From the IMG/VR virus record IMGVR_UViG_3300022074_005634, positions 1 to 23,505 of that record: a DNA stretch of 23,505 nucleotides. One strand, 5' to 3'. This DNA is from a virus. The notes beneath the pieces are model-generated. The model was not told where the DNA came from, did not search any database, and saw nothing but the letters and a program-made list of their open reading frames with translations. Positions 3,861 through 23,505 of the stretch are shown here, in pieces. The translations under genes were made by a program, and so were the position numbers. Positions within the stretch are counted from its first letter, which is position 1; the number at the start of each line of letters is the position of its first letter.

Positions 3861-4708
3861 ACAAGCTAGTAATAGGCACAGACCTTGCTGCCTTAATCTA
3901 CGCCTACCTAAACAACTGCACGTTCATTTTTAAAGAGATAGTCCACCCCACTCCATTCGAGTTCCTGCCGCTGGACTTCCCTTTAAATCTGTTTAATCAT
4001 GACAAAATAGAAATAGAGATGACCAGCCTTGATGGAGTGGTCAAGTTCGGCACACCAAAGATAGAGTTGTGGAACAGGCTTGTCTTTGTTATGTCCTCGG
4101 CTGGTCTCCTACCCTTTGGTCTCAAAGAGGTAACCGTTAGAGAAGAGGACGACTTGGTGGTGGTCAAAACCAAATCACGCAACTACTATTACGAAGCAGC
4201 CGAGGTCATAAAAATAAAGAATACCTTCCACAGATACACAGCGTTTGATTGGATCAACGTTAGGTCTTGCGGTGCAAACCATCTACAGTATGTAAGCACC
4301 GACGACAAGTTCGTATCAGAAGTGTTCTTCTACCCTTCAGGGCGACACGGAGCCAAACAAGGCGACAACGACATTGCAATAATCTCAAGCCTATCTGAAA
4401 CACAACTACAACTATTTGATTATAGCGAGACGATGACTAGGATAAGGGTCAAGGTTTTGCTGCACGAGTTGGGCATCAAGGGACCAAGGAACGGCAAGAA
4501 CCCGACCTACCCTAGATCGCCAGAGAGATACAAGTACGCGCCTATAAAACTAGAGCACGATCATAGGGAGATAAGAAGAACTAAAACCAACAACAGTGAA
4601 CTAGAAATAGTACAAGACTTCTTACAGGAGCAAAAAGAACTATCAGAGGATACTTATCTGTATAAGTTTAACAGCAGAGTTTCGCAGAGGAGCCTGTTGA
4701 GAAAATGA
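3833..4708 (+). CDS. Hypothetical protein of 291 residues
   Basis: I do not recognise this protein. It opens with a basic stretch, then VDKLVIGTDLAALIYAYLN, which resembles the first strand and helix of a Rossmann nucleotide-binding fold but lacks the full GxGxxG. The middle is strand-rich (for example DLVVVKTKSRNYYYEAAEVIK). The last 70 residues are charged, with the basic patch REIRRTKT followed by a helical tail. Its 5' end overlaps the secreted-protein gene by 28 bases, and its stop overlaps the cysteine synthase start by four bases (ATGA). It is therefore firmly part of the operon. The product is soluble, with no membrane segment seen. An FAD/NAD-dependent or sugar-modifying enzyme is conceivable given the nucleotidyltransferase-fold neighbour two genes on, but this is only a guess. 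Confidence 0.65.
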   Translation: MRKRHHYQVDKLVIGTDLAALIYAYLNNCTFIFKEIVHPTPFEFLPLDFPLNLFNHDKIEIEMTSLDGVVKFGTPKIELWNRLVFVMSSAGLLPFGLKEVTVREEDDLVVVKTKSRNYYYEAAEVIKIKNTFHRYTAFDWINVRSCGANHLQYVSTDDKFVSEVFFYPSGRHGAKQGDNDIAIISSLSETQLQLFDYSETMTRIRVKVLLHELGIKGPRNGKNPTYPRSPERYKYAPIKLEHDHREIRRTKTNNSELEIVQDFLQEQKELSEDTYLYKFNSRVSQRSLLRK

Positions 4709-5826
4709 TTAGAGAAGGAATAAGGGCTACAGGCTCTGGTGGGAAAGGCGGAGCACCCGCAGCACCAGTAACTAGCCAGAAGGTCACACCAGCAGATGGC
4801 TGTGCGACAACAGGAGATGAGAACAACAATGGCGTCGAGGTGCGTGATGCATTAGGTGCCGATACTAACATACCCAGCGAAGCCAATTGCTATCAGAATA
4901 TGAGTTCTGAACAGGTTTTGCAAATCGCTGGTAAATCTAAAATAGGTGGGACAAAGACAATGGACTTAGGTAGTTTGGTGGGGAGCACACCCTTAATAAA
5001 ACTTGGAGATAAGTTGTATGCGAAGTTTGAAACATACAATCCAAGTGGCAGCATCAAAGATAGAATAGGATATTATATTCTTTCCAAGGCAGAAGAGAGG
5101 GGAGACCTCAAGCCGGGAGATACAATCGTAGAAGCCACCAGCGGCAACACGGGCATCGCTGTATCTATGTTTGGCGCTCACAAAGGATACAAGGTCATCA
5201 TTGTTATGCCTTGCAATATGAGCGAAGAGCGCAAGCAGATGATGCGTATGTTTGGCGCAGAGGTGATTGAAGTAGAGGCAGGAGATTTCGACAGGGCTAT
5301 TGCAATGCGAGATCACATCTGCAAAGAGGACGGCTTTTTCAACTTCAATCAGTTTCACAACCCAGATAACATCGCCTGTCACTACGAGACGACGGGTGTC
5401 GAGATCCTAGACCAGACGCGAGGGCTGGAGATCTCTGCTTTTATCGACGGAACAGGCACGGGGGGAACCTTGATGGGCGTAACTGAAAGGCTAAAAGAAC
5501 GTTACCCCAGAGTCCAGACAGTAGCAGTAGAGCCAGCAGAGTCTCCAGTTATGAGCGGTGGTGAGGCAGGGCTACACGGCATCCAAGGAATTGGAGACGG
5601 ATCAAAGTTTTTAGTTGACTTAAAAAAAGTAGATGATATAATGGTAATCTCAACGGAGGATGCTAAGTCTAGAATGAAACAACTAATAGGAACAGGCTTG
5701 TTGGTTGGTATAAGTTCTGGCGCAAATGTGTTGGCATCTGAAAGATGGATTGAACAAAACAATCCTGATGGTATTGTAGTCACAATACTGTGCGACAGGG
5801 GCGAACGTTACCTTTCATGCATGTAA
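4705..5826 (+). CDS. cysK: Cysteine synthase-like PLP enzyme with N-terminal extension
   Basis: Residues from about 86 onward match O-acetylserine sulfhydrylase, which makes cysteine from O-acetylserine and sulfide using pyridoxal phosphate. Visible motifs are LVGSTPLIKL, the PLP lysine K118 in PSGSIKDRIG, the substrate loop TSGNTGIAVS, the PLP-phosphate loop GTGTGGTLMG, VAVEPAESPVM, IQGIGDG and the final ISSGAN...CDRGERYLS. The protein stops just after GERYLS, so the last roughly 15-20 residues of bacterial CysK are missing. The first 85 residues are an extra, low-complexity Gly/Ala-rich segment. The ATGA overlap with the upstream gene supports the ATG at 4705. A second start at 4960 (M86) has AGGTGGG nine bases upstream and would give a normal-length core, so both forms may be made. 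Threonine-synthase-fold relatives such as cystathionine beta-synthase are less likely. Confidence 0.88.
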   Translation: MIREGIRATGSGGKGGAPAAPVTSQKVTPADGCATTGDENNNGVEVRDALGADTNIPSEANCYQNMSSEQVLQIAGKSKIGGTKTMDLGSLVGSTPLIKLGDKLYAKFETYNPSGSIKDRIGYYILSKAEERGDLKPGDTIVEATSGNTGIAVSMFGAHKGYKVIIVMPCNMSEERKQMMRMFGAEVIEVEAGDFDRAIAMRDHICKEDGFFNFNQFHNPDNIACHYETTGVEILDQTRGLEISAFIDGTGTGGTLMGVTERLKERYPRVQTVAVEPAESPVMSGGEAGLHGIQGIGDGSKFLVDLKKVDDIMVISTEDAKSRMKQLIGTGLLVGISSGANVLASERWIEQNNPDGIVVTILCDRGERYLSCM

Positions 5827-6695
5827 GACATTTAGCTGGCATTGTTCCTGTAGCAGGACAGCCACTTGATTTTAATTTTCCTTGGCACGATTGCCTGCAA
5901 CCAATCGGACCAGACTACCTAGCAGTCGAGCGAGCCATCTTGGAGTGTGCATACGCTGGTTGTGATACAATATGGCTGACTTGCCACACTGATATGCAGC
6001 CCCTTATCAAGAAAAGACTAGGAGACTTTGTTGAAGATCCGGTCTACATTAATCGAAAATACGATCCCGGATTCCCTTCGGAAAGAAGAAAGAAGATCCC
6101 AATATATTATGTTCCAATTCACCCCAACGACAGGGATAAGCGAGACTGCCTTGCTTGGAGTGTTTTGCACGGAGCCAACACAGCACACTACATCAGCAAG
6201 AATATAAGCAAATGGATAACCCCAGACAAATTCTACACAGCATTTCCTTATGGAGTTTATGATTTTAAATTCTTGAGAGAATACAGAAAGAAGATTCTAA
6301 GTGATGAAGGCTTCTTTGTAAGTTGGAATGGCGCAACAGTTAAGGACGGTCATTATCTTGGCTTCTGTTTCACACCCGAGGAGTTCAAAGAATACCGCCG
6401 ACACTTACGCACCGAGGCAACTGGGGCATACTATAAGTCGGAGGACGGCGAGCTGCCAACGGTAAAGCTACCAATTGAAGAAAGATACTCAGCCCGTCAT
6501 TTTTCTCTTGACAAAGTGTTTGGAATAGGCGATACTAGTGGAGCAAATATAGCTTGTGTTCATGACTATTTTAATATAGATAGTTGGGAGGGCTTGCGAG
6601 CCTACTTGGGATCTGACCACAGAATCTATAGGCACAATACATTATTAGCAGGAAAGAAGTTTAATAGGATAGGAGAGGATATTGAAGAAGAGTAG
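5817..6695 (+). CDS. Nucleotidyltransferase-fold protein, divergent
   Basis: A 292-residue protein whose start resembles the GT-A/NTP-transferase fold of sugar-nucleotide pyrophosphorylases. It has a GIVPVAGQPL strand-loop (residues 8-17), a QPIGP element near 28-32, then AVERAILECAYAGCDTIWLTC, equivalent to the helix and strand that end in aGc..I.lv in that family. The usual GxGTR and PKP signatures are altered: the loop reads AGQPLDFNFPWHDC, without the catalytic Arg and Lys in their normal places. It may therefore bind a nucleotide or sugar without classic pyrophosphorylase activity. I chose the ATG at 5817, which overlaps the cysteine synthase end, because family members begin a few residues before this first strand. 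A GTG at 5790 would add nine residues. The 3' end overlaps the polymerase gene. Confidence 0.55.
   Translation: MHVRHLAGIVPVAGQPLDFNFPWHDCLQPIGPDYLAVERAILECAYAGCDTIWLTCHTDMQPLIKKRLGDFVEDPVYINRKYDPGFPSERRKKIPIYYVPIHPNDRDKRDCLAWSVLHGANTAHYISKNISKWITPDKFYTAFPYGVYDFKFLREYRKKILSDEGFFVSWNGATVKDGHYLGFCFTPEEFKEYRRHLRTEATGAYYKSEDGELPTVKLPIEERYSARHFSLDKVFGIGDTSGANIACVHDYFNIDSWEGLRAYLGSDHRIYRHNTLLAGKKFNRIGEDIEEE
6671..6675 (+). promoter_or_regulatory. Ribosome binding site deciding the TTG start of dnaE
   Basis: AGGAG lies six bases before TTG at 6682, inside the end of the upstream gene. It supports a rare TTG start for the polymerase. The following codons give KKSSIPFVGLHAHS, which is the expected N-terminus of the PHP domain. 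Confidence 0.65.
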
Positions 6696-9600
6696 CATAC
6701 CATTCGTAGGATTACACGCCCACTCAGTAGCGGGTTCGCCCTTTGACGCACTAGGGTACCCACAGGATCATATGGATTACGCATATGAGAATGGCGGCGA
6801 AGCGCTAGCACTAACAGACCACGGCAATATGAATGGCATGGCTTACCAAGTTCTACACGCCAAGAAGATGAAAGCCGAGGGTAAGAACTTCAAACCTATC
6901 TTTGGTGTAGAGGCTTACTTCATCCCCAGTCTTGATGTCTGGAACGAGGAGCGAGACAGGGCTAAGACTGATAAGAAGAGAGCCAGCGAACTTAAAGACA
7001 GCACAACTATGTCTGTTGAGAATGAAGGCGAGACTAAGAGATCTAAAAGCATTCTAAACCAACGCTCGCACCTCATCCTCTTAGCGCAGAACCAGACAGG
7101 GCTAAACAACATCTTCGCTATGATCTCTAAATCTAACTCAGATAAATACTTCTTTCGGTATCCACGAGTAGACTACGAGGTATTGCGAGAGCATAGTGAA
7201 GGCGTCATCGCTGCCTCTGCTTGTATGGGTGGTGTGTATGCGGCTAACTTCTGGAAGCACTGGGACGGGGAGAAAGAGATTGTAACCGATCCAGAGGCTT
7301 GTACTGATGCGTTTAGAGAGACTACTAGGAATATGATAGACATCTTTGGTGACCGCTGGTACGGCGAGCTTCAATGGCACACCGACAAGAAGCAGCATAT
7401 GATTAACAAACTAGTCATCCAAATGCACAAAGAGTTCGGCATCAAGTTGATCTCTACGGCAGACAGCCACTACCCAACACCCACTGCTTGGAAGGATAGG
7501 GAACTCTATAAGCGACTAGGATTTCTAGGCAAAGGAAAGCCGTCTTGGTTGTCGGATGAGCTACCAGAGAGCGTAGCAGAAGTTGGCTACGAACTCTACC
7601 CAAAGAACGGCGACCAGATGTGGGAAAGTTATAAACACTACACAGAACTTGTAGGAGAAGACTATGATGATGATTTGGTTATGGATTCCATCACAGAGAC
7701 GCACAACATAGCATTTAACCGCATCGAAGATTTTATGCCGGATAACGAGGTAAGACTGCCTTCTTTTGTTGTTCCCGATGGATACACGGCTGATGCCGCC
7801 CTAGAGACAACTAGCCTAGAAAGTCTCAATAAACTTGGGCTCTTAACCAATCCTGAGTACAAGGCAAGACTAGAAGAAGAACTGTCTGTGATTTCTGACC
7901 GAGGGTTTAGTAAATACTTTCTTACAATGAAAGCCATCGCAGACACAGCAACGGAAAACCAACTGGCTGGTCCGGGTCGAGGCTCTGCTGCTGGTTCCCT
8001 TGTGGCTTATGCTCTAGGCATCACACAGGTAGATCCAATCAAGTACGGACTACAGTTCGCTCGTTTCCTTCGTAAGGATGCGACAGACTATCCTGATATT
8101 GATTATGATGTATCCAGCCCTATGGAACTCAAAGAGATTATGCAGGAGAAGTGGGGGCATACAACTGTTGTTCCTATCTCTAACTTTAACACCCTACAAC
8201 TGAAGTCTCTGGTTAAGGACATCTCAAAGTTATACGACATCCCATTCACAGAAGCCAACGCAGTCACATCTCGTATGGTTGCAGAGGCTACACCAAAGGC
8301 TAAGGCAAAGCATGGCATCAAGGCTGGTATGTACATCCCAACCTTTGAAGAGCTAATGGAATTCTCCGACAGCCTACAAGACTACCTCCAAAGGTATCCA
8401 CACATCAAAGACCACATTAAGGTTATCTATGGTCAGGTCCGCAGCACAAGCAGACACGCAGGTGGAGTTGTGGTTGGGGAGGACCTAGACAAACATATGC
8501 CCCTGATTAGAAGTGGAGGCGTCATCCAGACACCGTGGTCAGAAGGTCAGAACGTCAGGCACTTAGAGCCACTAGGCTTTATTAAGTTTGATGTGTTGGG
8601 TCTAGCCTCTCTGCGTATGATTGAGACAGCGGTGCGTCACATTCTTAAACGACACCACAACAACCCTGACCCAACCTTTGATGATGTGAGGGCTTACTAT
8701 GATGAGCATCTACACCCAGAGAAGATTGACTTATCGGACCAGAAGGTATACAAGAACATCTTCCACAAAGGTAAGTGGGCTGGTATCTTCCAGTTCACAG
8801 AGAGCGGAGCGCAGAACTTCTGTAAGCAAGCCAAGCCAAAGAACATCATTGATATCTCTGCTATCACCAGTATCTATCGCCCCGGTCCCCTTGGAGCCAA
8901 CGTAGATAAGAAGTATGTGAAAGCCAAGGAAAACCCACGAGGTATTGATTACATTAACAAATACGTAAAGGATGTGACCAAGGAAACTTATGGCTTCCTT
9001 ATCTTCCAAGAACAGATCGCTTCACTAGCACACGAACTAGGAGAAGGAGTTAGTCTTGACGAGGGCAACCTGCTCCGTAAGTTGCTAACTAAAAAGGGAA
9101 CTGGTAAAGGAGCGCAAGAGAAAGAGAAGATCCGCAAGAAGTTTGTTAGTGGCTGTCTCAACAAGAAGATGACCGAGGACCAAGCAGTAGAACTATGGAA
9201 TAACTTTGAGTATTTCTCTGGCTATGGCTTCAACAAGTCTCACGCGGTGTCCTACTCTATCCTATCATTCCAGTGCGCTTGGTTGCTGAACTACTATCCA
9301 GCAGAATGGATGGCTGCTTTCCTCGACAAAGAGCCCGACAGTAAAAAAGAAAAGGCTATCGGCATTGCGAAGAGTATGGGCTTTGGTATTGAGCCACTCA
9401 ACATCAACACCTCTGGTAAGGTCTGGGAGATTAGCGACGATGGTAAGACACTCATCCAGCCTCTGACTTCTATCAAAGGGCTCGGTGGTTCAGCGATGGA
9501 TCAAATCCTAATGCACCGACCATTCAATACGATTGAGGAGTTCTTGTTTCATAAAGAGGTTACATACTCAAAGCTAAACAAGAAAGCCCTCGACGTTCTT

Positions 9601-10116
9601 TGCAGGTCAGGTGCTCTCAAATCTCTACAGGACGACAGGTTTACGGGGGCTAAACACTTCTGGTCTTGTGTCGCAGTAGATAGACCAAGGAAAGAGAGCG
9701 CGTTGCTGGGCAACATTGAGACCTACGCAGATGAAGGTGACTTCTCAACAGAGGAGAGGATTCAATATCTAACCGACTTGACTGGTATGTTCCCTATCAA
9801 CCTAGTGATGAAAGGCGATACACTAAGCCAACTGGTAGATAATGGTGTGCCTGCTATCTCTGAGTATGACCCTGACTTGAAGTTGGTGTGGTTTATTCCT
9901 CGCAAGGTCACAATTAAAAAGACTAAGAACGACAAGGCATACTATGTCTTGGAAGTCATCGACGACAACAATGTAATCACTACGATTAGGTGTTGGGGCG
10001 TGAAGTTAGAGAAGGACCGCGTTCAACTCAACAAGCCTTACATGGCTAAACTAGATTACAACGATCAATGGGGTTTCTCTACTAGATCTATGTACCACAA
10101 CTTCAGAGTGCTATGA
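6682..10116 (+). CDS. dnaE: DNA polymerase III alpha subunit, DnaE type, with PHP domain
   Basis: A 1144-residue C-family replicative polymerase. The N-terminal PHP domain (about 1-280) shows H12/H14 (GLHAHS), D46-H47 (LTDHGN), E77 (GVEAYF), H130 (HLILLAQN), C181 (ASACMGG) and D261/H263 (ADSHY). The palm carries the catalytic aspartates D472/D474 in YPDIDYDVSS and D637 in IKFDVLGL. GPGRGSAAGSLVAYALGI (about 430-447) and SIYRPGPLG are further DnaE signatures. A helix-hairpin-helix (IKGLGGSAM, about 930-940) and an OB-fold (VTIKKTKNDKAYYVLEV, about 1075-1091) follow. The length is close to bacterial DnaE (about 1160). The gene overlaps both neighbours (14 bases upstream, ATGA downstream). It should be the phage replicase, working with the helicase at position 1. 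No separate DnaQ exonuclease is seen in the window. Confidence 0.95.
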   Translation: MKKSSIPFVGLHAHSVAGSPFDALGYPQDHMDYAYENGGEALALTDHGNMNGMAYQVLHAKKMKAEGKNFKPIFGVEAYFIPSLDVWNEERDRAKTDKKRASELKDSTTMSVENEGETKRSKSILNQRSHLILLAQNQTGLNNIFAMISKSNSDKYFFRYPRVDYEVLREHSEGVIAASACMGGVYAANFWKHWDGEKEIVTDPEACTDAFRETTRNMIDIFGDRWYGELQWHTDKKQHMINKLVIQMHKEFGIKLISTADSHYPTPTAWKDRELYKRLGFLGKGKPSWLSDELPESVAEVGYELYPKNGDQMWESYKHYTELVGEDYDDDLVMDSITETHNIAFNRIEDFMPDNEVRLPSFVVPDGYTADAALETTSLESLNKLGLLTNPEYKARLEEELSVISDRGFSKYFLTMKAIADTATENQLAGPGRGSAAGSLVAYALGITQVDPIKYGLQFARFLRKDATDYPDIDYDVSSPMELKEIMQEKWGHTTVVPISNFNTLQLKSLVKDISKLYDIPFTEANAVTSRMVAEATPKAKAKHGIKAGMYIPTFEELMEFSDSLQDYLQRYPHIKDHIKVIYGQVRSTSRHAGGVVVGEDLDKHMPLIRSGGVIQTPWSEGQNVRHLEPLGFIKFDVLGLASLRMIETAVRHILKRHHNNPDPTFDDVRAYYDEHLHPEKIDLSDQKVYKNIFHKGKWAGIFQFTESGAQNFCKQAKPKNIIDISAITSIYRPGPLGANVDKKYVKAKENPRGIDYINKYVKDVTKETYGFLIFQEQIASLAHELGEGVSLDEGNLLRKLLTKKGTGKGAQEKEKIRKKFVSGCLNKKMTEDQAVELWNNFEYFSGYGFNKSHAVSYSILSFQCAWLLNYYPAEWMAAFLDKEPDSKKEKAIGIAKSMGFGIEPLNINTSGKVWEISDDGKTLIQPLTSIKGLGGSAMDQILMHRPFNTIEEFLFHKEVTYSKLNKKALDVLCRSGALKSLQDDRFTGAKHFWSCVAVDRPRKESALLGNIETYADEGDFSTEERIQYLTDLTGMFPINLVMKGDTLSQLVDNGVPAISEYDPDLKLVWFIPRKVTIKKTKNDKAYYVLEVIDDNNVITTIRCWGVKLEKDRVQLNKPYMAKLDYNDQWGFSTRSMYHNFRVL

Positions 10117-11027
10117 ACCCGCAAGATAGATTTAAAGACTACCAAGGCGACAAGTGCTGGCAAGCCTACATCTCTGAAGTCAATCGGGGCGAGGACTTGC
10201 TGGCTGCTGGCTTAACAGAGGAAGAGGCATCAATGTTGCGAATTGATGACTTTGTGTTTGAGTATGTTGATAAGGAGAATAAGCAACTATGTAAAGAGGT
10301 AAAAGAGTTTATTATGCGACACGAGTGGCTAGCTAAACTCCCCAACCGACCGACACATAGGTTTACAGCGAGGCTTAAGAAAAATGGAATCTTGGCAGGC
10401 ACTATCATTATGGCAACCCCAAATGCGTTTTCTAACCTTTTGGGCAAAGAAAACAAAGACAAAGAAAAGCTAATCTCTCGTGGTGCCTGTATCTCTTGGG
10501 GTCCAAAGAACCTAGGCTCTTGGTTGATCATGTCTTCAGTCCGTTGGATGACTGAGAACACAGACTTCCGATACTTCACAGCCTACTCTGACCCAGAGGC
10601 TAAGGAGCTAGGAACAATCTACCAAGCCTGTAACTTCCAATACCTTGGGCAGACAAGCGGCACAGCCAAGCAATACCTCGACCCAGACTACCCAGAGAAA
10701 GGTTGGTTCTCCGATAGAGAGTTCAGAAAGAAGTCTAAGTACCAAAGATATGCTGAAGCAATCGGCATAGACAAGCAGACTTGGAAAGGCTGGATGAAGA
10801 AGTATTCTCCAGACTGGACCGCTGTCCCGCCAGACATCAAGGTCAAGATCAAGGCAGAAGAAAAGAGATATCGGGATAGTTGCAAGTCCAGAGCAGTCCC
10901 TGCAAAGCATAAGTATGTTTGTATTCTCGGTCGAACTCAGGGCGAGACAAAGTATTACAGGCGTATGTTTAAGAAACTAAACCCTAAGAAGGCAAATCTG
11001 CCTTATCCACAGGAGCGAGGCAAATGA
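10113..11027 (+). CDS. Mom-like GNAT-fold protein, candidate DNA adenine modification enzyme
   Basis: A 304-residue protein that resembles the phage proteins annotated as Mom-like. By family, Mu Mom has a GNAT-type fold and converts adenine to a carbamoylmethyl form that blocks many restriction enzymes. Visible here are a GNAT-like core with GTIIMATPNAFS (about 96-107), ISRGACISWGPKNLGSWLIM (about 123-142), YFTAYSDPEAKELGTIYQAC and NFQYLGQTSGTA. After a basic linker comes a C-terminal KHKYVCILG...LPYPQER segment, which is characteristic of that group. The assignment is from remembered family patterns, not a search. A different N-acetyltransferase activity is the main alternative. ATGA overlaps join it to the polymerase upstream and to the membrane protein downstream. 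It sits next to the restriction-modification-like genes. Confidence 0.6.
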   Translation: MNPQDRFKDYQGDKCWQAYISEVNRGEDLLAAGLTEEEASMLRIDDFVFEYVDKENKQLCKEVKEFIMRHEWLAKLPNRPTHRFTARLKKNGILAGTIIMATPNAFSNLLGKENKDKEKLISRGACISWGPKNLGSWLIMSSVRWMTENTDFRYFTAYSDPEAKELGTIYQACNFQYLGQTSGTAKQYLDPDYPEKGWFSDREFRKKSKYQRYAEAIGIDKQTWKGWMKKYSPDWTAVPPDIKVKIKAEEKRYRDSCKSRAVPAKHKYVCILGRTQGETKYYRRMFKKLNPKKANLPYPQERGK

Positions 11028-11933: not shown

Positions 11934-12821
11934 TTGAAAGTGCTAGACAACGTATTCGTATTTAATGAAGAAGGGATAGAGTTCTTGTCTAAGATACAAG
12001 ACAACTCGATTGACCTTATCTTGACTGACCCTCCCTACATCACATCTAGAGAGACTGGTATGGACAAGTGGGTCGACCACGTTGCAGGGCAAGATAAGGA
12101 AGGTGCAAAGAACATTAAGTCTGAAGAGGAATGGCTGTCTTACAAGACAGAGGGCGAATGGGATATGTGGATGAGTAACGGAAACATACCTGCCGAGAAG
12201 AGAGGCAAGAAGCTTCAACAGTTGAAGAAAGATTATCTCAAGTACGGCAGCATCTACGGCAAGAAGTTTGCTGTCACCACAGACTATGGTGAGTGGGACA
12301 GTGAGTTCACTATGGAGAAGCTACATCTATTCATGAAGCATTTCTATCGAATCCTAAAGGATGGTGGAAGCTGTATTATCTTTTTTGATATTTGGAAGCT
12401 GTCTTATCTGAAAGAGATGATGGAGGAAGAGAAGTTCAAGCAGCCTAGATTCATTGAGTGGATTAAGACTAACCCTCAACCAATCAACAGCAGTCGTAAC
12501 TATCTGACAAACTGTAGAGAGATTGCATTGACTGGCGTAAAGAAAGGAAGCAGCACATTCAACAGCAAGTATGATAATGGTATCTACAAGTATCCTTTGC
12601 AAGGAGGCAAGTGGAGGTTTCATCCGACTCAAAAGAGTCTGCCATTGTTTGAAGACTTGATTTTGAAGCACTCTAACGAGGGAGACACTGTATTGGATTG
12701 TTTCCTTGGTTCAGGCACAACTGCTGTAGCAGCAGCAAAGAACAATAGAAAGTTTGTTGGTTGTGAAAAAAGTGAAGAATATTTTGAAAAAAGTGTTGAC
12801 AGATTGAAAAATCAGTGTTAG
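11934..12821 (+). CDS. Beta-class DNA methyltransferase, probably N6-adenine
   Basis: A 295-residue SAM-dependent methyltransferase with motif order IV, target-recognition region, X, I. Motif IV is SIDLILTDPPY with the catalytic DPPY at 32-35. The motif X-like HPTQKSLPLFEDLI lies at about 230-243. Motif I, VLDCFLGSGTTAVAAA, is near 253-268, followed by FVGCEKSEEYF. This order defines the beta class, and DPPY favours N6-adenine, although N4-cytosine cannot be excluded. The central region (about 40-220) should choose the target site. The start is a TTG directly after the stop of the nuclease-like gene, with AAGGGTG upstream, so translation is coupled. A GTG two codons later is an alternative start. 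By context it protects phage DNA from the partner nuclease or from host restriction. Confidence 0.88.
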   Translation: MKVLDNVFVFNEEGIEFLSKIQDNSIDLILTDPPYITSRETGMDKWVDHVAGQDKEGAKNIKSEEEWLSYKTEGEWDMWMSNGNIPAEKRGKKLQQLKKDYLKYGSIYGKKFAVTTDYGEWDSEFTMEKLHLFMKHFYRILKDGGSCIIFFDIWKLSYLKEMMEEEKFKQPRFIEWIKTNPQPINSSRNYLTNCREIALTGVKKGSSTFNSKYDNGIYKYPLQGGKWRFHPTQKSLPLFEDLILKHSNEGDTVLDCFLGSGTTAVAAAKNNRKFVGCEKSEEYFEKSVDRLKNQC

Positions 12822-12852: not shown

Positions 12853-13911
12853 ATGAACGAAGAACAATATAACTATATGATTAAGACTTACGGTCAGCCA
12901 TTTCTAGATAGTATAGAAGAGATTGACCCCGGAGATGTGAAGTCATTTAACCAGAGAGCTAGAGTTAACGGCAATCAGCAAAACAATATTAGTAGGTACA
13001 CGCAGCAATTTTTGAATGGGACGGAGCAAAAAATCCCCGTATCTCTTCGAGGCAGTGAGTGTATGGAGGGTACGAGTCGCGCAAAATCCAAACAACAAGC
13101 ACATAGGGCTGACAAAAAGCAAAGACTTAAAGCCACAAATTATATGCACGAGGTGCTTGGGTGGACTGACGAAGAGTGGGAGGAATTCCAAGACAACGCT
13201 AACGATCATGCTGGTAATTCTCCCGCTACGGACGATGATATGGAAGCAGCAGTAGAGAGGCGGATACAGAACCATCGCATGGACACCATTGTCAAAAATG
13301 TGACTGGGAAAATTTTGAACCCAAGAAAAAAGCCGGAGGATTTGGAAGAATATGTAGAAGCCGCTGGTCGATATATGAAAGAAAACGTTTTTCCCAAGTC
13401 GCCTCGAACAAACGTTTGGTTTAAAAATAGAGTTAGAGACTTTCTTAAGAACGATGTTAACAAAGTTAGCAGCCGAAAAACATATACGCCAGTTGATAAT
13501 GCAAAATTCTTTCGTGATTCAGGTCATTCTAAGTGGAGTGGTCATTCAACTGCTACAGTTGACAAAAATGAGCACCTGATTGTTATCAACTCCAAAAGCA
13601 AATTTGATCCAAACATCAGCGGAGCGCTGACTCACCAAGTAAGAGAGTATCCCCACATTAAGCAAACCGTCGCAATCAGTTTGAGCAACTTGACTGGTTT
13701 ATCAGATTCCGATATTGACAAGATAAGGCAAGATATTGTAACTCTGGTAAAACGAACTGTCGCAATGTTTAAAAACCCACCCAATGTTCAGGTAGTTTCT
13801 TTCCATCAGAAAGCGTCGGATTCTCACGGTGTTACGTTGCTATGGGATTCTAAAGAAGAGCAACAAGAGGAGGACGTAAAGCGTATGATTTCTGCACTAC
13901 AAGGTAAATAA
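12853..13911 (+). CDS. Hypothetical protein of 352 residues downstream of the R-M-like pair
   Basis: No family is recognised. The protein is hydrophilic and has no signal or membrane segment. Residues 1-60 are Gln/Asn-rich. Residues 70-200 are charged and probably helical, with an acidic patch (TDEEWEEFQDNAND). The C-terminal half is more regular: DSGHSKWSGHSTATV, a strand EHLIVINSKS, then a helix-strand series TQ..VAISLSNLTGLSDSDIDKIRQDIV and VQVVSFHQKASDSHGVTLLWD. The ATG follows a strong GAGGAG site. Codon use looks less uniform than in its neighbours, with more AAA and AAT, which may point to separate acquisition, but this was not counted. It lies between the methyltransferase and the UvsE promoter, so it may be a third member of that cassette (specificity, control or anti-host factor) or an unrelated insertion. 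Confidence 0.6.
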   Translation: MNEEQYNYMIKTYGQPFLDSIEEIDPGDVKSFNQRARVNGNQQNNISRYTQQFLNGTEQKIPVSLRGSECMEGTSRAKSKQQAHRADKKQRLKATNYMHEVLGWTDEEWEEFQDNANDHAGNSPATDDDMEAAVERRIQNHRMDTIVKNVTGKILNPRKKPEDLEEYVEAAGRYMKENVFPKSPRTNVWFKNRVRDFLKNDVNKVSSRKTYTPVDNAKFFRDSGHSKWSGHSTATVDKNEHLIVINSKSKFDPNISGALTHQVREYPHIKQTVAISLSNLTGLSDSDIDKIRQDIVTLVKRTVAMFKNPPNVQVVSFHQKASDSHGVTLLWDSKEEQQEEDVKRMISALQGK

Positions 13912-13914
13912 TAC

Positions 13915-13943
13915 TTGACTTCCATTTAATCCTACCTTATAAT
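13915..13943 (+). promoter_or_regulatory. sigma70-like promoter for the uvsE operon
   Basis: TTGACT (13915-13920) and TATAAT (13938-13943) are 17 bp apart, in the 61-base gap before the UvsE gene. The flanking bases match those of the promoter at 11375 at most positions, including CTTGACTTC, CCTTATAATC and CATAA downstream. It probably drives the tightly packed genes up to 18361. Confidence 0.8.
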
Positions 13944-13972
13944 CAGACCATAACTTTTACAGAGGAGATAGT

Positions 13973-14890
13973 GTGAATAATATCGGATATGCTTGTATCA
14001 ATATGGATTTGTCTGAACAGCCCAAGTCTAAGCGCGTGACTACCAATAGATCTATGATTAAACGCACCTTCCAAGAGAAGGGCGTTGCATACGCTTCTGA
14101 ACTGGCGTTGGCAAACTGCCGAGACCTTCTCACTATCTTGAAGTGGAACGAGGCACACGGGTTCAGCTTCTTTCGTTTATCGTCAGAACTGTTCCCGTGG
14201 GCTTCCGAGTATAAGATGTCTGACCTACCAGACTTTGATGACATCTGCTTGGCTCTACAAGAGGCTGGTGACTTCATCGAGGACCATGGTCATCGTATCA
14301 CATCCCACCCCGGACCATTCAACAAGCTGACTTCTCCAAGAGAAGAGGTAATCCAAAACACTATTCGTGACTTGGAGATCCACGGCGAGGTCTTTGATAT
14401 GCTTGGCTTGTCCAGAACACCATACAACAAACTAAACATTCACGTCGGGGCTCACTATAATGATAAGCCCATGGCTCTCGGAAACTTCTGTAAGAATTTT
14501 CACAGACTATCAGATGCAGTCAAGTCTCGCCTTACAGTAGAGAACGATGACAAGGCTTCTCTCTACTCAACCAAGGAACTGTATGATAGTGTATACCAAG
14601 AGATTGGTATTCCCATCGTACACGACCAGCATCACCACCTATTCTGTACTGGCGGTCTAGACCAAGAGGAAGCAATGCTTACTGCTGCTATGACTTGGGG
14701 TGACATTACACCAGTCATCCATTACAGTGAAAGCCGACCAGAAGAGCAGAACGATCCCAAGATCAAACCACAGGCTCACTCTGATTATGTCTACAAGAAG
14801 ATTGATACATTCGGTTTGGATGTAGATGTAATGGTAGAAGCCAAAGCCAAGGAACGAGCAGTCCAGCGATACAAGGAGTTGTGGGGATGA
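13973..14890 (+). CDS. uvsE: UV-damage DNA endonuclease (UvsE/UVDE family)
   Basis: A 305-residue TIM-barrel endonuclease that nicks DNA 5' of UV photoproducts in alternative excision repair. Visible family signatures are IGYACINMDL at the N-terminus (compare LGYVCINL), NCRDLLTILKWNEAHGFSFFRLSS, HRITSHPGPFNKL, LNIHVGAHYNDK, LTVENDDKASLY, the His cluster IPIVHDQHHHLF that supplies metal ligands, and a late VIHYSESR. The length is typical of UvsE. The start is a GTG after a GAGGAG site, fixed by the position of the first barrel strand. It is the first gene of the operon behind the 13915 promoter. The presence of this repair enzyme suggests exposure of virions or infected hosts to sunlight. Its stop codon overlaps the next gene (ATGA). 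Confidence 0.93.
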   Translation: MNNIGYACINMDLSEQPKSKRVTTNRSMIKRTFQEKGVAYASELALANCRDLLTILKWNEAHGFSFFRLSSELFPWASEYKMSDLPDFDDICLALQEAGDFIEDHGHRITSHPGPFNKLTSPREEVIQNTIRDLEIHGEVFDMLGLSRTPYNKLNIHVGAHYNDKPMALGNFCKNFHRLSDAVKSRLTVENDDKASLYSTKELYDSVYQEIGIPIVHDQHHHLFCTGGLDQEEAMLTAAMTWGDITPVIHYSESRPEEQNDPKIKPQAHSDYVYKKIDTFGLDVDVMVEAKAKERAVQRYKELWG

Positions 14891-15222
14891 AAGATAAAAT
14901 ATATTATGATGACAAATGCTATGTGTGTTCCTTTGAGATAAATGCTGTAAGGAAACGAGGCGAAGCCTGTGGCATAGAGTTTGTAGACATCAGCGAAGAG
15001 GGTTTTGACCTTGAGGGCGATTACGACACAGAGATGGTCGGAGAGTTTGAAGGCAAGCAAACGATAGGAATAGAAACCTTTAGGCTTATGTATGAGAAAA
15101 TGGGATTCCGACGAGCAGTAGCGTTCAGCAGACTACCAATCATCAAGCAGCTATTCGACGGAGGCTATTGGGTATTCGCACACTGGATTAGGTCCAATCT
15201 GCCTAAGCGAGGTAAAGAATGA
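14887..15222 (+). CDS. DCC-family (DUF393) thiol-disulfide protein
   Basis: A 111-residue protein with the DCC signature at its N-terminus, IYYDDKCYVCSFEINAVRK (C11 and C14 in a CxxC pair after the acidic residues). The rest has the family's usual FRLMYEKMGF helix and a C-terminal WVFAHWIRSNLPKRGK, matching the W..IR..LP ending of DUF393. By family these are thioredoxin-like proteins of unknown substrate. I chose the ATG at 14887 because it overlaps the UvsE stop as ATGA, rather than the TTG two codons earlier. It could help recycle the active-site disulfide of the class II reductase at 957, but nothing here proves that. Confidence 0.8.
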   Translation: MKDKIYYDDKCYVCSFEINAVRKRGEACGIEFVDISEEGFDLEGDYDTEMVGEFEGKQTIGIETFRLMYEKMGFRRAVAFSRLPIIKQLFDGGYWVFAHWIRSNLPKRGKE

Positions 15223-15431
15223 AAAAGGAAATGGTTGATCACCCAGCCCACTACAATGCTTCCAGTATGGAAGTCATTGATGCTATTGATGGGTTGGGTT
15301 ATGCCGAAGGGTTCTGTGTCGGCAGCATCATCAAGTATGTTACCAGATACAAACACAAGAGTGGTATTGAGGATCTGAAGAAAGCCAAGTGGTACATAGA
15401 TTATTTGATAAAGAATTATGAAAACAATTGA
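15219..15431 (+). CDS. DUF3310 phage protein
   Basis: A 70-residue protein with the DUF3310 pattern: a VDHPAHYN opening, MEVIDAIDGLG, then GSIIKYVTRYKHKSGIEDLKKAKWYIDYLI. This small domain is common in phage nucleotide-metabolism and replication regions and its function is unsettled; some entries are labelled nucleotide kinase-like. It starts with ATGA over the DCC stop and ends inside the start of the Smr gene, so the three are translationally coupled. Confidence 0.88.
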   Translation: MKKEMVDHPAHYNASSMEVIDAIDGLGYAEGFCVGSIIKYVTRYKHKSGIEDLKKAKWYIDYLIKNYENN

Positions 15432-15636
15432 TTTACACGGCACAAAGCACGAAGAAGCAGAGAACAAGTTGATTGATTTTGTTGTATTCAATGATCCTCC
15501 ATTTAGAATCGTAACTGGTAACTCTCCGAAAATGAAAGAGATTGTTGAAAAAGTTATTGACAAGTATGAATATTTTTGCTACGCTGAGAGCGTTCATAAT
15601 CAGGGTAGCGTAATTGTAACCGAGAAGGAGTGGTAA
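15418..15636 (+). CDS. Small MutS-related (Smr) domain protein
   Basis: A 72-residue stand-alone Smr domain. It has TIDLHGTKHEEAENKLIDFV (residues 3-22, the LDLHG motif and its helix) and RIVTGNSPKMKEIVEKVI (compare the family TGKG...L...V). The usual TGKG or TGRG glycine is replaced by TGNS. By family, Smr domains nick branched DNA or cut RNA; the LDLHG residues are important for activity. It overlaps the DUF3310 gene by 14 bases and meets the dUTPase gene at TAATG. Its role may be in recombination or mRNA turnover. Confidence 0.8.
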   Translation: MKTIDLHGTKHEEAENKLIDFVVFNDPPFRIVTGNSPKMKEIVEKVIDKYEYFCYAESVHNQGSVIVTEKEW

Positions 15637-16106
15637 TGAACTTAAAGTTTTATAGAATGAGAACAAACGCAAAACTACCAGTTAGGGCACACAGAACAGA
15701 CGCAGGCATGGACTTGTTCTACTGCCCCAATGGTGACCGTGGAGTCTGTACGGAAGACAGCGGCGACTACTGGATCCCAGCCAGAGGAAGCAGCCTCGTC
15801 TCGACTGGGCTAAAGACAGAGATCCCAGAAGGCTATATGCTGGAGGTCAAGAACAAGTCAGGCATTGCCTCTAAGCGACAACTAGTTGTGGGTGCCTGCG
15901 TTGTCGACCCCGGCTATGACGGCGAGATCTACGTCAATCTACACAACATTGGTGTGGAGACACAGGTGATCAAGCCGGGAGACAAGATTGCTCAGGCAGT
16001 TCTAGTCCCAATCGTCCATTGCGGCATTGAGGAAACTACCGAGGATAATCTCAATAATGGCTCTTCTCGTGGCGACGGGGGCTTCGGCTCAACTGGTGAC
16101 CGCTAA
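15636..16106 (+). CDS. dut: dUTP diphosphatase (trimeric dUTPase)
   Basis: A 156-residue homotrimeric dUTPase that hydrolyses dUTP to dUMP, keeping uracil out of DNA and supplying dUMP for dTMP. All five motifs can be seen: AGMDL (23-27), NKSGIASK (73-80, motif 2, with Lys where Arg is usual in PRSG), VVDPGYDGEI (89-98, with Asp in place of the usual Arg of YRG), PGDKIAQAVLVP (114-125) and RGDGGFGSTG (145-154) at the flexible C-terminus. The acidic and tyrosine residues of motif 3 are kept. I chose the ATG at 15636, which shares a base with the Smr stop (TAATG), rather than a GTG two codons earlier; GAAGGAG lies just upstream. An insert CPNGDRGVCTEDSGDY (30-45) separates motif 1 from the next strand. 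Confidence 0.94.
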   Translation: MNLKFYRMRTNAKLPVRAHRTDAGMDLFYCPNGDRGVCTEDSGDYWIPARGSSLVSTGLKTEIPEGYMLEVKNKSGIASKRQLVVGACVVDPGYDGEIYVNLHNIGVETQVIKPGDKIAQAVLVPIVHCGIEETTEDNLNNGSSRGDGGFGSTGDR

Positions 16107-16381
16107 TGGGCAAACTATCCAAGAAGGTCGGCAGAAAAAAGCAAGTCCAAGCAAAGAAGGACGCACAGGAGAAACTCGTTCGTAGCGTATCTATGTTCGG
16201 TCTCCGCCCTGATGCTTGCTCAACCTGCTCGGCTCCCTTTGATAAGAACAGCAGAGAGATGGCTATGACTTGGCGAGTAGTCACCAACGAAGAAGAGAAG
16301 CGAGTAACCCTAATCTGCCCCGACTGTCACCAAAAGATTGACGAGGGCATACAAAAAGTATTTGGAGAAGACAATGACTAA
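16106..16381 (+). CDS. Small basic zinc-ribbon protein
   Basis: A 91-residue protein with a very basic N-terminus (KLSKKVGRKKQVQAKKDAQ) and two CxxC knuckles: C38/C41 in ACSTCSAPF and C71/C74 in LICPDCHQK. These could hold one zinc ion. The stretch between them (EMAMTWRVV...EEKRVTL) would be the beta hairpin. The architecture suggests nucleic-acid binding, but the family is not recognised by name. The start overlaps the dUTPase stop as TAATG, and the last codons overlap the next gene. Confidence 0.65.
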   Translation: MGKLSKKVGRKKQVQAKKDAQEKLVRSVSMFGLRPDACSTCSAPFDKNSREMAMTWRVVTNEEEKRVTLICPDCHQKIDEGIQKVFGEDND

Positions 16382-16745
16382 GGATGAATACAAGCAATTC
16401 TGCTTGGACAACAACCTGCGCTACAAGAAAGATGGCTGTGGAGATCCTATCTCACCCAGCAGGAAAGGCTTGAAGACAGATCAGATCTACTGGACAGGCG
16501 AAGATGAACTCGGAGTTTATGCCGAGAGAGAGACACAGAAGAAGTTTACTTTCCTAAAGAAGAAGTTAGTTGAAGAGTATGGTCTCAAGCTAAACCAAGA
16601 CGGGGACACGGACTCCACATTCATAGCAACCAAAGAGCAAGCAATCAAAGTCGCTTCCTTCCTTGGTTGCGCCAAGAATGCTGTATCCCAAGCAACACGA
16701 GATAAGATGAGCAGACTAATGAAAGAGAGGTTGCACAGTGACTAG
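16374..16745 (+). CDS. Hypothetical phage protein of 123 residues
   Basis: This is a soluble, charged protein with no confident family. It contains GCGDPISPSRKG, a YWTGEDELGVYAERET motif in the middle, KFTFLKKKLVEEYGLKL, then TFIATKEQAIKVASFLGC and a helical tail. The last half may be a helix-turn-helix-like fold, but no signature is clear. I chose the ATG at 16374, preceded by TTTGGAGAAG, over an upstream in-frame start at 16338 that would overlap the zinc-ribbon gene much more. Its end overlaps the GTG start of the next gene by eight bases. Similar small proteins occur in phage operons, but I cannot name a function. Confidence 0.6.
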   Translation: MTKDEYKQFCLDNNLRYKKDGCGDPISPSRKGLKTDQIYWTGEDELGVYAERETQKKFTFLKKKLVEEYGLKLNQDGDTDSTFIATKEQAIKVASFLGCAKNAVSQATRDKMSRLMKERLHSD

Positions 16746-17751
16746 CTTAAGTTTTGATGATGTCCTGCTGGTCCCCCAGTATTCAGACATCGAAAGCAGA
16801 AAGAGTTTAACAACCAGCAATGAGTTGGATGATACAACTACACTGCAACTCCCAATCATTTCCAGCCCAATGGATACTGTAACAGAGGTTGACATGTCTT
16901 TGGCTATGGATACTCACGGAGGGCTTGGCATCATTCACCGATACAATAGCCCAGCAGAACAAGCCAAGTTGGTTAAGCTAGCCAAACTAAAAGGGCTGAC
17001 CAATGTTGGAGCAGCCATCGGCGTGACTGGTGATTACTTGGAGAGGGCACAGGTGCTTGTAGAAGAGGGAGCCAATGTTCTCTGCGTTGACGTAGCACAC
17101 GGGCACCACTCAATGATGAAAACAGCCCTCAACAAACTCAAGGAGACCTTCGGAGATAGTGTCCACCTTATGGCAGGCAATGTAGCCACGGGCGAAGGAG
17201 CAAGGGGCTTAGCTAACTGGGGTGCTGATAGCGTTCGTGTCGGCATCGGCGGGGGAAGTATCTGCTCCACGAGATTGGTAAGTGGTCACGGCATTCCAAC
17301 CCTACAGTCTGTTATTGATTGTGTTGAGTATGGTTGTCCTGTTCCTATCATTGCCGATGGAGGTATAAAAACAAGTGGAGACGTTGTGAAGGCTCTGGCT
17401 GCTGGTGCTGACTTTGTTATGCTTGGCTCAATGTTGGCTGGAACAACTCAATCGCCCGGACAAGTATTCGACAACGGCAACAAGAGATACAAGGTCTATC
17501 GAGGCATGGCGTCAAGTGAAGCCCAAGTTAACTGGCGAGGCAAGACGTCCACACCAGAGGGTGTCTCCACTACCATTCCATACAAGGGCGATGTGAATAA
17601 CATCTTGGCTGATATAAAAGGCGGCATCCAAAGCGGTATGTCCTACTCTGGTGCAAGGACCATTAGGAACTTACAAGCCAAGGCACAGTTTACTCGTCAG
17701 ACGCCAGCCGGTCAGGCAGAGAGTTACACACACATTCTATCAAGGAATTAA
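16738..17751 (+). CDS. IMP dehydrogenase/GMP reductase family enzyme without CBS domains
   Basis: A 337-residue TIM-barrel enzyme of purine metabolism. IMPDH makes XMP from IMP; GMPR returns GMP to IMP. Visible signatures are [12 protein letters not shown] at the start, [42 protein letters not shown], the active-site loop [11 protein letters not shown] with catalytic C176, [12 protein letters not shown] and [10 protein letters not shown]. The barrel continues directly from residue 70 to 90, so the Bateman (CBS) insert of most IMPDHs is absent. The C-terminus [11 protein letters not shown] and [11 protein letters not shown] is IMPDH-like, whereas PYKGDV and the short flap (about 258-275) without the IMPDH Arg-Tyr pair recall GMPR. 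Which reaction it runs is therefore unsettled. The start is GTG after a GAGAGG site. Confidence 0.88.
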
Positions 17752-21983: not shown

Positions 21984-23505
21984 ATGTCTAAACAATATGA
22001 ATCAGGTCAGACCCTTCAACAGAAGATTGCTAGGGGCATTGACATCTTGGCTGATAATGTAGCAGCCACAATGGGACCACGAGGACGCAATGTCATCCTA
22101 CACCAAGAAGGTTCCAACCCAATCATCACAAAGGACGGAGTAACAGTCGCCAAGTTCGTTGACTTGGAAGACCCCTTTGAGAATGTCGGCGTCCAAATCC
22201 TAAAGCAAGTTGCTGACCAGACCAACTCTGATGCTGGTGATGGGACAACAACTTCCACAGTTTTGGCTCGTGCTATCTACAAAGCAGCCCAGCAATATGT
22301 TCTCGCTGGCTCATCCCCAACAGAACTCAAGCGAGGTATGGAGAAGGCAGTAGCTACCATTACCAGCAGACTGAAAGACAGTGCTCATCCAATCAAAACC
22401 AAAGAAGACATTGAGCACATCGCCACCATCTCAGCCAACGGTGACAAGACCATCGGCAGCCTGATTGCTACAGCAGTAGACAAGGCAGGAAAAGACGGGG
22501 CTATTACCGTAGAAGAGGCTCGTTCAATGAAGACGACCTTGGACATCGTTGAGGGTTTCCGCTTTGATTCTGGCTTCTTATCTCCACAGTTTATCAACGA
22601 TGAGCGACGTTCTGCGATTACCTACCATGACCCAATGATACTCGTGACTGATGAGAGAGTAGATTCTGTTGAGGATATGCTACCCGCACTTGAACTGGTG
22701 GCGCGAGAGGGCAGACCATTCCTAATTGTAGCCGAGGAAGTTGAAGGGCAAGCACTTGCTGCCTTGATTATGAATGCTGTCCGAGGCACAATGAAGGTAG
22801 CAGCAGTCAAGGCTCCTCGCTACGGTGAAGAGCGACGAAACATTCTTAATGACCTAGCGCTTTCTGTCGGAGGAACTCTTATCACAAAAGAAAAAGACTT
22901 GTCCTTGCGTGACGTAAAGCTAGAACACTTTGGTACTGCCAAGAAGATTGACGTGACTAAGCACTTGACGACTTTGATTGACGGAGTTGGAGAGGGCAAG
23001 GACATCCAAGAGAGGATTGCAATCTTACGAGAGCAAGTAGCACAATCCCAGACTGACGCCGAAGGCGAAGCAATCCAAGAACGTATCACCAGACTAGCCA
23101 GCGGTGTCGCCATCATTCGTGTTGGAGCGTCGACTGAAGTAGAGATGGTCGAGAAGCGTCACAGGATTGAGGATGCACTGGAAGCAGTCAGGGCAGCCAA
23201 GGACGACGGAATTGTAACTGGAGGTGGCACTGCACTCCTGCGAGTTGTGCAAGACCTTGAGGTAGAGACAGAGAACGCTGAGCAAGCCCAAGGTGTTGAA
23301 ATCATTAAGGAAGCCTGCTACGAACCAATCAAACAGATCTTAAACAACGCAGGCAAATCGGCTGATGTCGTCATCAACAACATCTTGCAAAGCGACCAAA
23401 CCGACATCGGGCTTGACGTTGCAACTGACCAGTATGTTGATATGTTTGAGGCAGGTGTCGTAGATCCAGTCAAGGTTACTTGCTGCGCTGTGCAAAATGC
23501 TATGA
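21984..23505 (+). CDS. groEL: GroEL-like chaperonin (Cpn60), 3'-truncated by the window
   Basis: The frame is open for 507 codons and runs past the right edge; about 35 residues should remain by comparison with GroEL. The ATG at 21984 follows a CGAGG site. ATPase residues are kept: the TKDGVTVAK loop (D52 equivalent), GDGTTTSTVLA (D87 equivalent), and DALEAVRAAKDDGIVTGGG (D398 equivalent). The apical part contains VEGFRFDSGFLSPQF, compare EGMQFDRGYLSPYF. By family it forms a double seven-membered ring that folds proteins with GroES. A GroES-like gene exists at 3148, so this phage appears to carry both halves. Whether they work together or with host partners cannot be told. Strong promoter drive suggests large amounts are needed, for example for capsid protein folding. 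Confidence 0.95.
   Translation, partial: MSKQYESGQTLQQKIARGIDILADNVAATMGPRGRNVILHQEGSNPIITKDGVTVAKFVDLEDPFENVGVQILKQVADQTNSDAGDGTTTSTVLARAIYKAAQQYVLAGSSPTELKRGMEKAVATITSRLKDSAHPIKTKEDIEHIATISANGDKTIGSLIATAVDKAGKDGAITVEEARSMKTTLDIVEGFRFDSGFLSPQFINDERRSAITYHDPMILVTDERVDSVEDMLPALELVAREGRPFLIVAEEVEGQALAALIMNAVRGTMKVAAVKAPRYGEERRNILNDLALSVGGTLITKEKDLSLRDVKLEHFGTAKKIDVTKHLTTLIDGVGEGKDIQERIAILREQVAQSQTDAEGEAIQERITRLASGVAIIRVGASTEVEMVEKRHRIEDALEAVRAAKDDGIVTGGGTALLRVVQDLEVETENAEQAQGVEIIKEACYEPIKQILNNAGKSADVVINNILQSDQTDIGLDVATDQYVDMFEAGVVDPVKVTCCAVQNAM

Follow-up and report, generated by a model that had tools for sequence, protein, structure and literature searches.

The 23,505-base IMG/VR virus record IMGVR_UViG_3300022074_005634, analysed over its whole length (hereafter the window), encodes a C-family DNA polymerase whose N-terminal PHP domain carries a complete set of nine putative metal ligands. 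The dnaE-like gene lies on the plus strand at 6682..10116 and specifies 1144 amino acids; its open reading frame (ORF), Pfam and PHROG domains and Foldseek matches agree on this assignment. Pfam domains follow one another in the order PHP, DNA_pol3_alpha, DNA_pol3_finger and HHH_6 (residues 901-986), and residues 5-1116 are matched by the PHROG phage family phrog_405 ('DNA polymerase'). The start codon is TTG, with AGGAGAGG just upstream, and the alignments of nearly all relatives begin at residues 1-8 of the protein. The palm aspartates D472, D474 and D637 (within 8095..8592, plus strand), which we take to be the catalytic residues from alignment to C-family polymerases, are invariant across the window family. 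The oligonucleotide-binding (OB) domain sits after the helix-hairpin-helix (HhH)2 motif, which is the DnaE rather than the PolC form; residues ~1050-1144 of the structural model match OB folds with a borderline Z of ~8, and the model can be aligned up to residue 1144 with Thermus 2hpi and 3e0d (VIA-align). The ORF is a full-length DnaE-type DNA polymerase with a complete DnaE core. No record in the phage collection is 60% or more identical to it.

Putative metal ligands and fold of the PHP domain

The PHP domain comprises residues 1-290 (6682..7551, plus strand), as delimited by PF02811, an AlphaFold2 (AF2) model of residues 1-320 and VIA-align. Alignment and conservation place the putative metal ligands, all on the plus strand, at H12 and H14 in the motif HAH (6715..6723), D22 (6745..6747), H47 (6820..6822), E77 (6910..6912), H130 (7069..7071), C181 (7222..7224), and D261 and H263 in the motif DSH (7462..7470). 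All nine stand where a first-pass annotation of this DNA had put them. In the alignment with Thermus and mycobacterial DnaE that it had proposed, the motif is HHDHEHCDH for the window, 2hpi and 7pu7 alike, whereas E. coli DnaE, said to have lost the pattern, indeed has RHDFDHGDR. The published pattern for an active PHP domain is HHDHEH[C/H]DH (PMC12926913), and the window motif agrees with it at every position. The same annotation had remarked that D22 is one position off the expected spacing. This offset is real, since D22 follows H14 by 8 residues where 7 is canonical, with one extra loop residue and the aspartate kept (a conclusion that also draws on spacing counts). Among 86 sequences with an intact motif (phages and two reference chains), the histidine-aspartate spacing is 7 in 65, 8 in 17 and 10-12 in four, and the aspartate is always retained. 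Because other intact phage DnaEs with one to five extra residues in the same loop keep the aspartate, the offset represents a tolerated insertion, and a misplaced D22 or a broken motif is ruled out. The remaining ligand spacings fall within the range of intact phage DnaEs, with the E77-H130 loop at the long end.

The ligands are strongly conserved at every depth of comparison. They are invariant in the window and in each of the 79 relatives whose sequence spans the PHP domain (from 80 in IMG/VR at 64-99% identity, one of which, L009, is truncated), so the motif is not a product of chance. In a more diverse alignment of 63 PHP sequences (35% mean identity), only nine columns are invariant, namely H12, H14, S19, D22, H47, G75, E77, H130 and C181; seven of these are ligands, and D261 and H263 are conserved at 90% or more. 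The ratio of nonsynonymous to synonymous substitution rates (dN/dS) in the PHP domain is 0.03-0.05, similar to that of the polymerase part, based on three usable pairs of six (the other three gave no valid dS for the domain, probably through saturation). The nine ligand residues are under strong purifying selection.

Structural models place the domain beside polymerases with proven exonuclease activity. The full-length AF2 model, built from close homologues only, reached a predicted local distance difference test (pLDDT) score of 78.6, with poorer confidence near residues 16-24 and 101-126. Its best Foldseek match is mycobacterial DnaE1 (7pu7; E 7.5e-50), and it aligns with 5lew, 2hnh and 4iqj at Z 36-38 over ~790-840 residues (VIA-align). 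A model of residues 1-320 alone, built from a diverse alignment, scored higher (pLDDT 89.6; predicted template modelling score 0.90) and mended the region of residues 16-24. By VIA-align, this PHP model superposes on homologues with bound metal: on Thermus 2hpi with Z 28.9 and a root-mean-square deviation (rmsd) of 2.7 over 251 residues, and on Mycobacterium tuberculosis (Mtb) 5lew with Z 28.7 and rmsd 2.7 over 262 residues. E. coli DnaE, whose PHP domain is dead, still scores 26.9, and fold alone therefore cannot separate active from inactive PHP domains. Profile searches with the PHP domain gave E values of 5.1e-74 for Thermus, 3.2e-70 for Mtb, 1.6e-45 for PolC and 6.5e-42 for E. coli. By profile and by superposition alike, the window PHP domain is nearest to the proven exonucleases of Thermus and Mtb.

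Two further features concern the path that a primer may take to the PHP site. The long loop between E77 and H130 (6913..7068, plus strand) was recognized from loop lengths and from its positional match to the long loop of Mtb DnaE1, which lines the primer groove in that enzyme (PMC5636811); it measures 53 residues in the window, 34 in Mycobacterium and 22 in Thermus. The pair R159-Y160 (7156..7161, plus strand) aligns, in the family alignment, with K136-W137 of the Mtb primer path, as defined by mutants (PMC5636811). Within the window family, R159 is invariant and position 160 is either Tyr or Phe.

PHP motifs and separate exonucleases across phages

No separate proofreading exonuclease was recognized in the window or its relatives. 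A search of the window for the RNase_T domain, used here as the mark of DnaQ-like exonucleases, was empty, in line with the first-pass annotation, and so were searches of 45 relative records of up to 190 kb. DNA_pol_A_exo1, RNase_H_2 and DNA_pol_B_exo1 were absent from 20 window-family records, including the largest. A custom profile was also made from seven phage exonucleases, each of which it recovers when left out (E 3e-6 or better); its best match among 7,209 translated pieces from the family loci and the 190-kb record had E 0.77. Because that 190-kb relative (L354) has genes for terminase, portal, major head protein and tail sheath, it represents much of the genome of a contractile-tailed phage. 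A DnaQ-like gene elsewhere in the genomes of close relatives was considered and rejected, given that the four exonuclease families and the tested profile found no match.

The relationship between the PHP motif and separate exonucleases was examined in 147 DnaE-encoding phage records, consisting of the window family, 22 phage-collection records chosen across the range of similarity and 79 further IMG/VR records of at least 39 kb obtained through six scans. Sampling thus proceeded through similarity searches and most records are fragments; searches with a single DnaE from Brevibacillus or Bacillus phages yielded few relatives. The state of the PHP motif was taken from the alignment columns, and outside the window family the exonuclease search consisted of RNase_T alone, over whole records. 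The motif proved to be either complete or largely gone: of 120 DnaEs (119 from phages, one from E. coli), 85 have all nine canonical ligands, 35 have four or fewer, and none lies between. Of the 30 records whose motif is broken, 23 contain RNase_T; of the 117 whose motif is intact, 4 do (window family included; counts tallied by hand). Limiting the count to records of at least 100 kb gives 15 of 15 and 1 of 26, respectively. Fisher tests gave p values of 6e-17 for all records and 3e-10 for those of at least 100 kb, both of which ignore shared ancestry. The exonuclease gene adjoins dnaE in four of the five cultured phages with a broken motif.

The distribution appears to reflect repeated change. 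Parsimony applied to a polymerase-core tree reconstructs five changes of PHP state. Three are losses among phages, in a Rhizobium-phage group (24 sequences), in a group of Vibrio, Pseudomonas, Escherichia and Xanthomonas phages (6 sequences) and in the pair L217 and L274, each with exonuclease-positive members. This last pair retains three ligands in the pattern S/N-H-Y-Y-D-H-T/S-N-H and is sister to an intact DnaE, possibly representing a recent loss of the motif. A 55-kb record (L245) has a broken motif, groups by E. coli DnaE and gave no RNase_T match. Phage DnaEs have lost the PHP motif on at least three occasions, a small number of independent losses.

Motif status can be obscured by gene annotation. 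In Streptomyces phage Blueeyedbeauty (L086, MH536814; 2992-3100), dnaE is annotated as starting too far downstream, and an upstream in-frame TELHLHDYYSTLDG restores the first three PHP ligands hidden by the GenBank start.

In bacterial Pol III, loss of the PHP site goes with an epsilon subunit (Barros et al. 2013, PMC3666897), and a 2026 survey indicates that most bacteria with DnaE1 only have one candidate proofreader, either PHP or DnaQ (PMC12926913). Phages seem to obey this either-or rule, known for bacteria, as well. The literature searched, which did not include a 2011 survey of replicases in viruses (doi 10.1093/nar/gkr604), yielded no paper on a phage DnaE that proofreads with its PHP domain, and the phage pattern has apparently gone undescribed until now.

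Probable proofreading by the PHP site and the alternatives

The first-pass annotation had suggested that this polymerase may proofread with its own PHP site, a proposal supported by comparison, in that intact motifs and separate exonucleases are near-exclusive across phages. The window DnaE is quite likely a phage replicative polymerase that proofreads by its own zinc-dependent 3'-5' activity, like the DnaEs of Thermus and mycobacteria. The Mtb DnaE1 site binds three zinc ions through nine conserved residues, and its exonuclease activity is abolished by D23N or by D226N (PMC5636811); these two aspartates align with D22 and D261 of the window protein. By analogy, the nine PHP residues would hold a trinuclear zinc centre. 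A mispaired primer 3' end would leave the palm and travel along the groove flanked by the long loop and R159/Y160 to the PHP domain, where the wrong nucleotide would be excised in the 3'-5' direction as in the Thermus and mycobacterial enzymes.

Several observations weigh against this interpretation. The E77-H130 loop is very unlike its Mtb counterpart, and residues 106-112 within it are poorly modelled even in the PHP-only model. Bacillus phage PS1 (L081/L362) and its relative L195 combine an intact PHP motif with a strong RNase_T match; the remaining exceptions are two weak matches. The window and most of its relatives are genome fragments, and a host exonuclease could act in trans. Moreover, Geobacillus PolC, which retains eight of the nine ligands, binds metal but gave no detected exonuclease activity (PMC3666897), so an almost intact site may lack activity.

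This last enzyme is the precedent for a structural explanation, in which the PHP site binds metal but mainly holds the polymerase together and contributes no meaningful proofreading. PHP domains do stabilize Pol III, and mutating the ligands makes both the E. coli and the Mtb enzyme less stable (PMC3666897, PMC5636811). However, the aspartate at the eighth ligand position, missing from Geobacillus PolC, is present in the window DnaE as D261, and a structural role has no need of nine ligands, given that PHP domains of the E. coli type retain the fold without them. Nor would it account for ligand loss in those phages that have a separate exonuclease. The PHP-or-DnaQ rule in phages therefore makes catalysis the likeliest reason for the nine ligands, and a mainly structural site seems unlikely. 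A role in another reaction, for example as an AP-endonuclease (acting at apurinic/apyrimidinic sites), 3'-phosphatase or pyrophosphatase, recalls the pyrophosphatase function once proposed for polymerase PHP domains (PMC3666897), but the window domain is far nearer to DnaE PHP domains than to PolX (Z 28.9 versus ~7.9) and exclusivity with DnaQ-like exonucleases points to proofreading; this explanation can be considered extremely improbable.

Proofreading might instead be supplied in trans, by the epsilon subunit (DnaQ) of the host or by an unrecognized phage exonuclease. The host may have DnaQ; in E. coli, epsilon docks on the PHP surface of the polymerase (PMC3919608); and the window is only part of a genome. 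Nevertheless, phages with a broken PHP site nearly all carry their own exonuclease rather than rely on the host, which disfavours dependence on host epsilon, and the large relatives gave no match for the four exonuclease families or the tested phage-exonuclease profile. Trans proofreading would also leave the nine invariant ligands unexplained, and it appears very unlikely here.

The PHP site of the window DnaE is in itself of a known kind, ordinary and well conserved, and the cross-phage pattern is of greater interest. We lean towards the view that phage C-family replicases follow a near-strict PHP-or-DnaQ rule with repeated independent switches, and that the window represents a large, uncultivated phage group in which the PHP site proofreads and the primer-path loop is enlarged in a way unseen in characterized enzymes. 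If so, proofreading by the replicase itself would be common among phages with bacterial-type polymerases, and the bacterial trade-off between PHP and DnaQ would have been replayed several times in phages. These phages would then offer natural replicates of why and how replicases swap proofreaders, as well as single-protein proofreading polymerases for biochemistry.

Gene neighbourhood and comparison with known systems

Genes near dnaE encode a DnaB-like helicase, a class II ribonucleotide reductase, a Mom-like protein, a DNA methylase, UvdE, a dUTPase and GroEL, and the polymerase gene therefore sits in a block for replication and nucleotide metabolism. A gene for 301 amino acids with no Pfam or PHROG match (5790-6695) overlaps the dnaE start by 14 bases. 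Directly after dnaE lies the gene for a Mom-like DNA modification protein (10113-11027), followed 900 bases further on by that for an N6/N4 DNA methylase (11934-12821); the phage may accordingly carry modified adenines. Host-like genes for metabolism and repair encode the class II ribonucleotide reductase (957-2825), an enzyme dependent on pyridoxal phosphate (PLP; 4705-5826), the UV-damage endonuclease UvdE (13973-14890), an IMP dehydrogenase/GMP reductase domain protein (16738-17751) and the chaperonin GroEL, which is cut by the window end (21984-23504). In the 190-kb relative, L354, a Nol-like carbamoyltransferase and glycosyltransferases are encoded at 6554-8167 and 13632-16879, and perhaps serve sugar decoration of DNA or the virion.

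Known systems compared with the window polymerase include the DnaEs with dead PHP domains, represented by E. coli and by Pseudomonas phage phiKTN6, Xanthomonas phage Carpasina, Escherichia phage ECML-117, Rhizobium phage N1_15 and Vibrio phage VA-RY-3. These share with it a C-family polymerase and a PHP-like N-terminal domain, but have lost the PHP ligands and are accompanied by an encoded DnaQ-like exonuclease. The window shows neither hallmark of such a DnaQ-dependent replicase of the E. coli type: its ligands are not degraded, and no DEDD exonuclease was found in the window or the 45 relative records, mostly fragments. The DnaE-like polymerases of actinobacteriophages, Bacillus phages and gut phages, including those of Streptomyces phages Caliburn and LilMartin and Brevibacillus phage Sundance, likewise have an intact nine-ligand PHP domain, mostly without a separate exonuclease; they differ in being ~25-31% identical to the window protein and in coming from cultured phages with other hosts.

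Zinc-dependent exonuclease activity has been demonstrated for Thermus Pol III alpha. The Thermus aquaticus and T. thermophilus enzymes (2hpi, 4iqj) share all nine ligands with the window DnaE, but have a shorter E-to-H loop (22 residues) and the canonical H-D spacing of 7. Mtb DnaE1 (5lew, 7pu7) differs in sequence (27% identity over aligned residues), in the position of the third ligand, D22 being one residue further on in the window, and in an E-to-H loop of 34 residues instead of 53. It nonetheless shares the HHDHEHCDH motif, the domain order, a long E-to-H loop and a basic-aromatic pair at the primer-path position, and provides the best Foldseek match of the full model.
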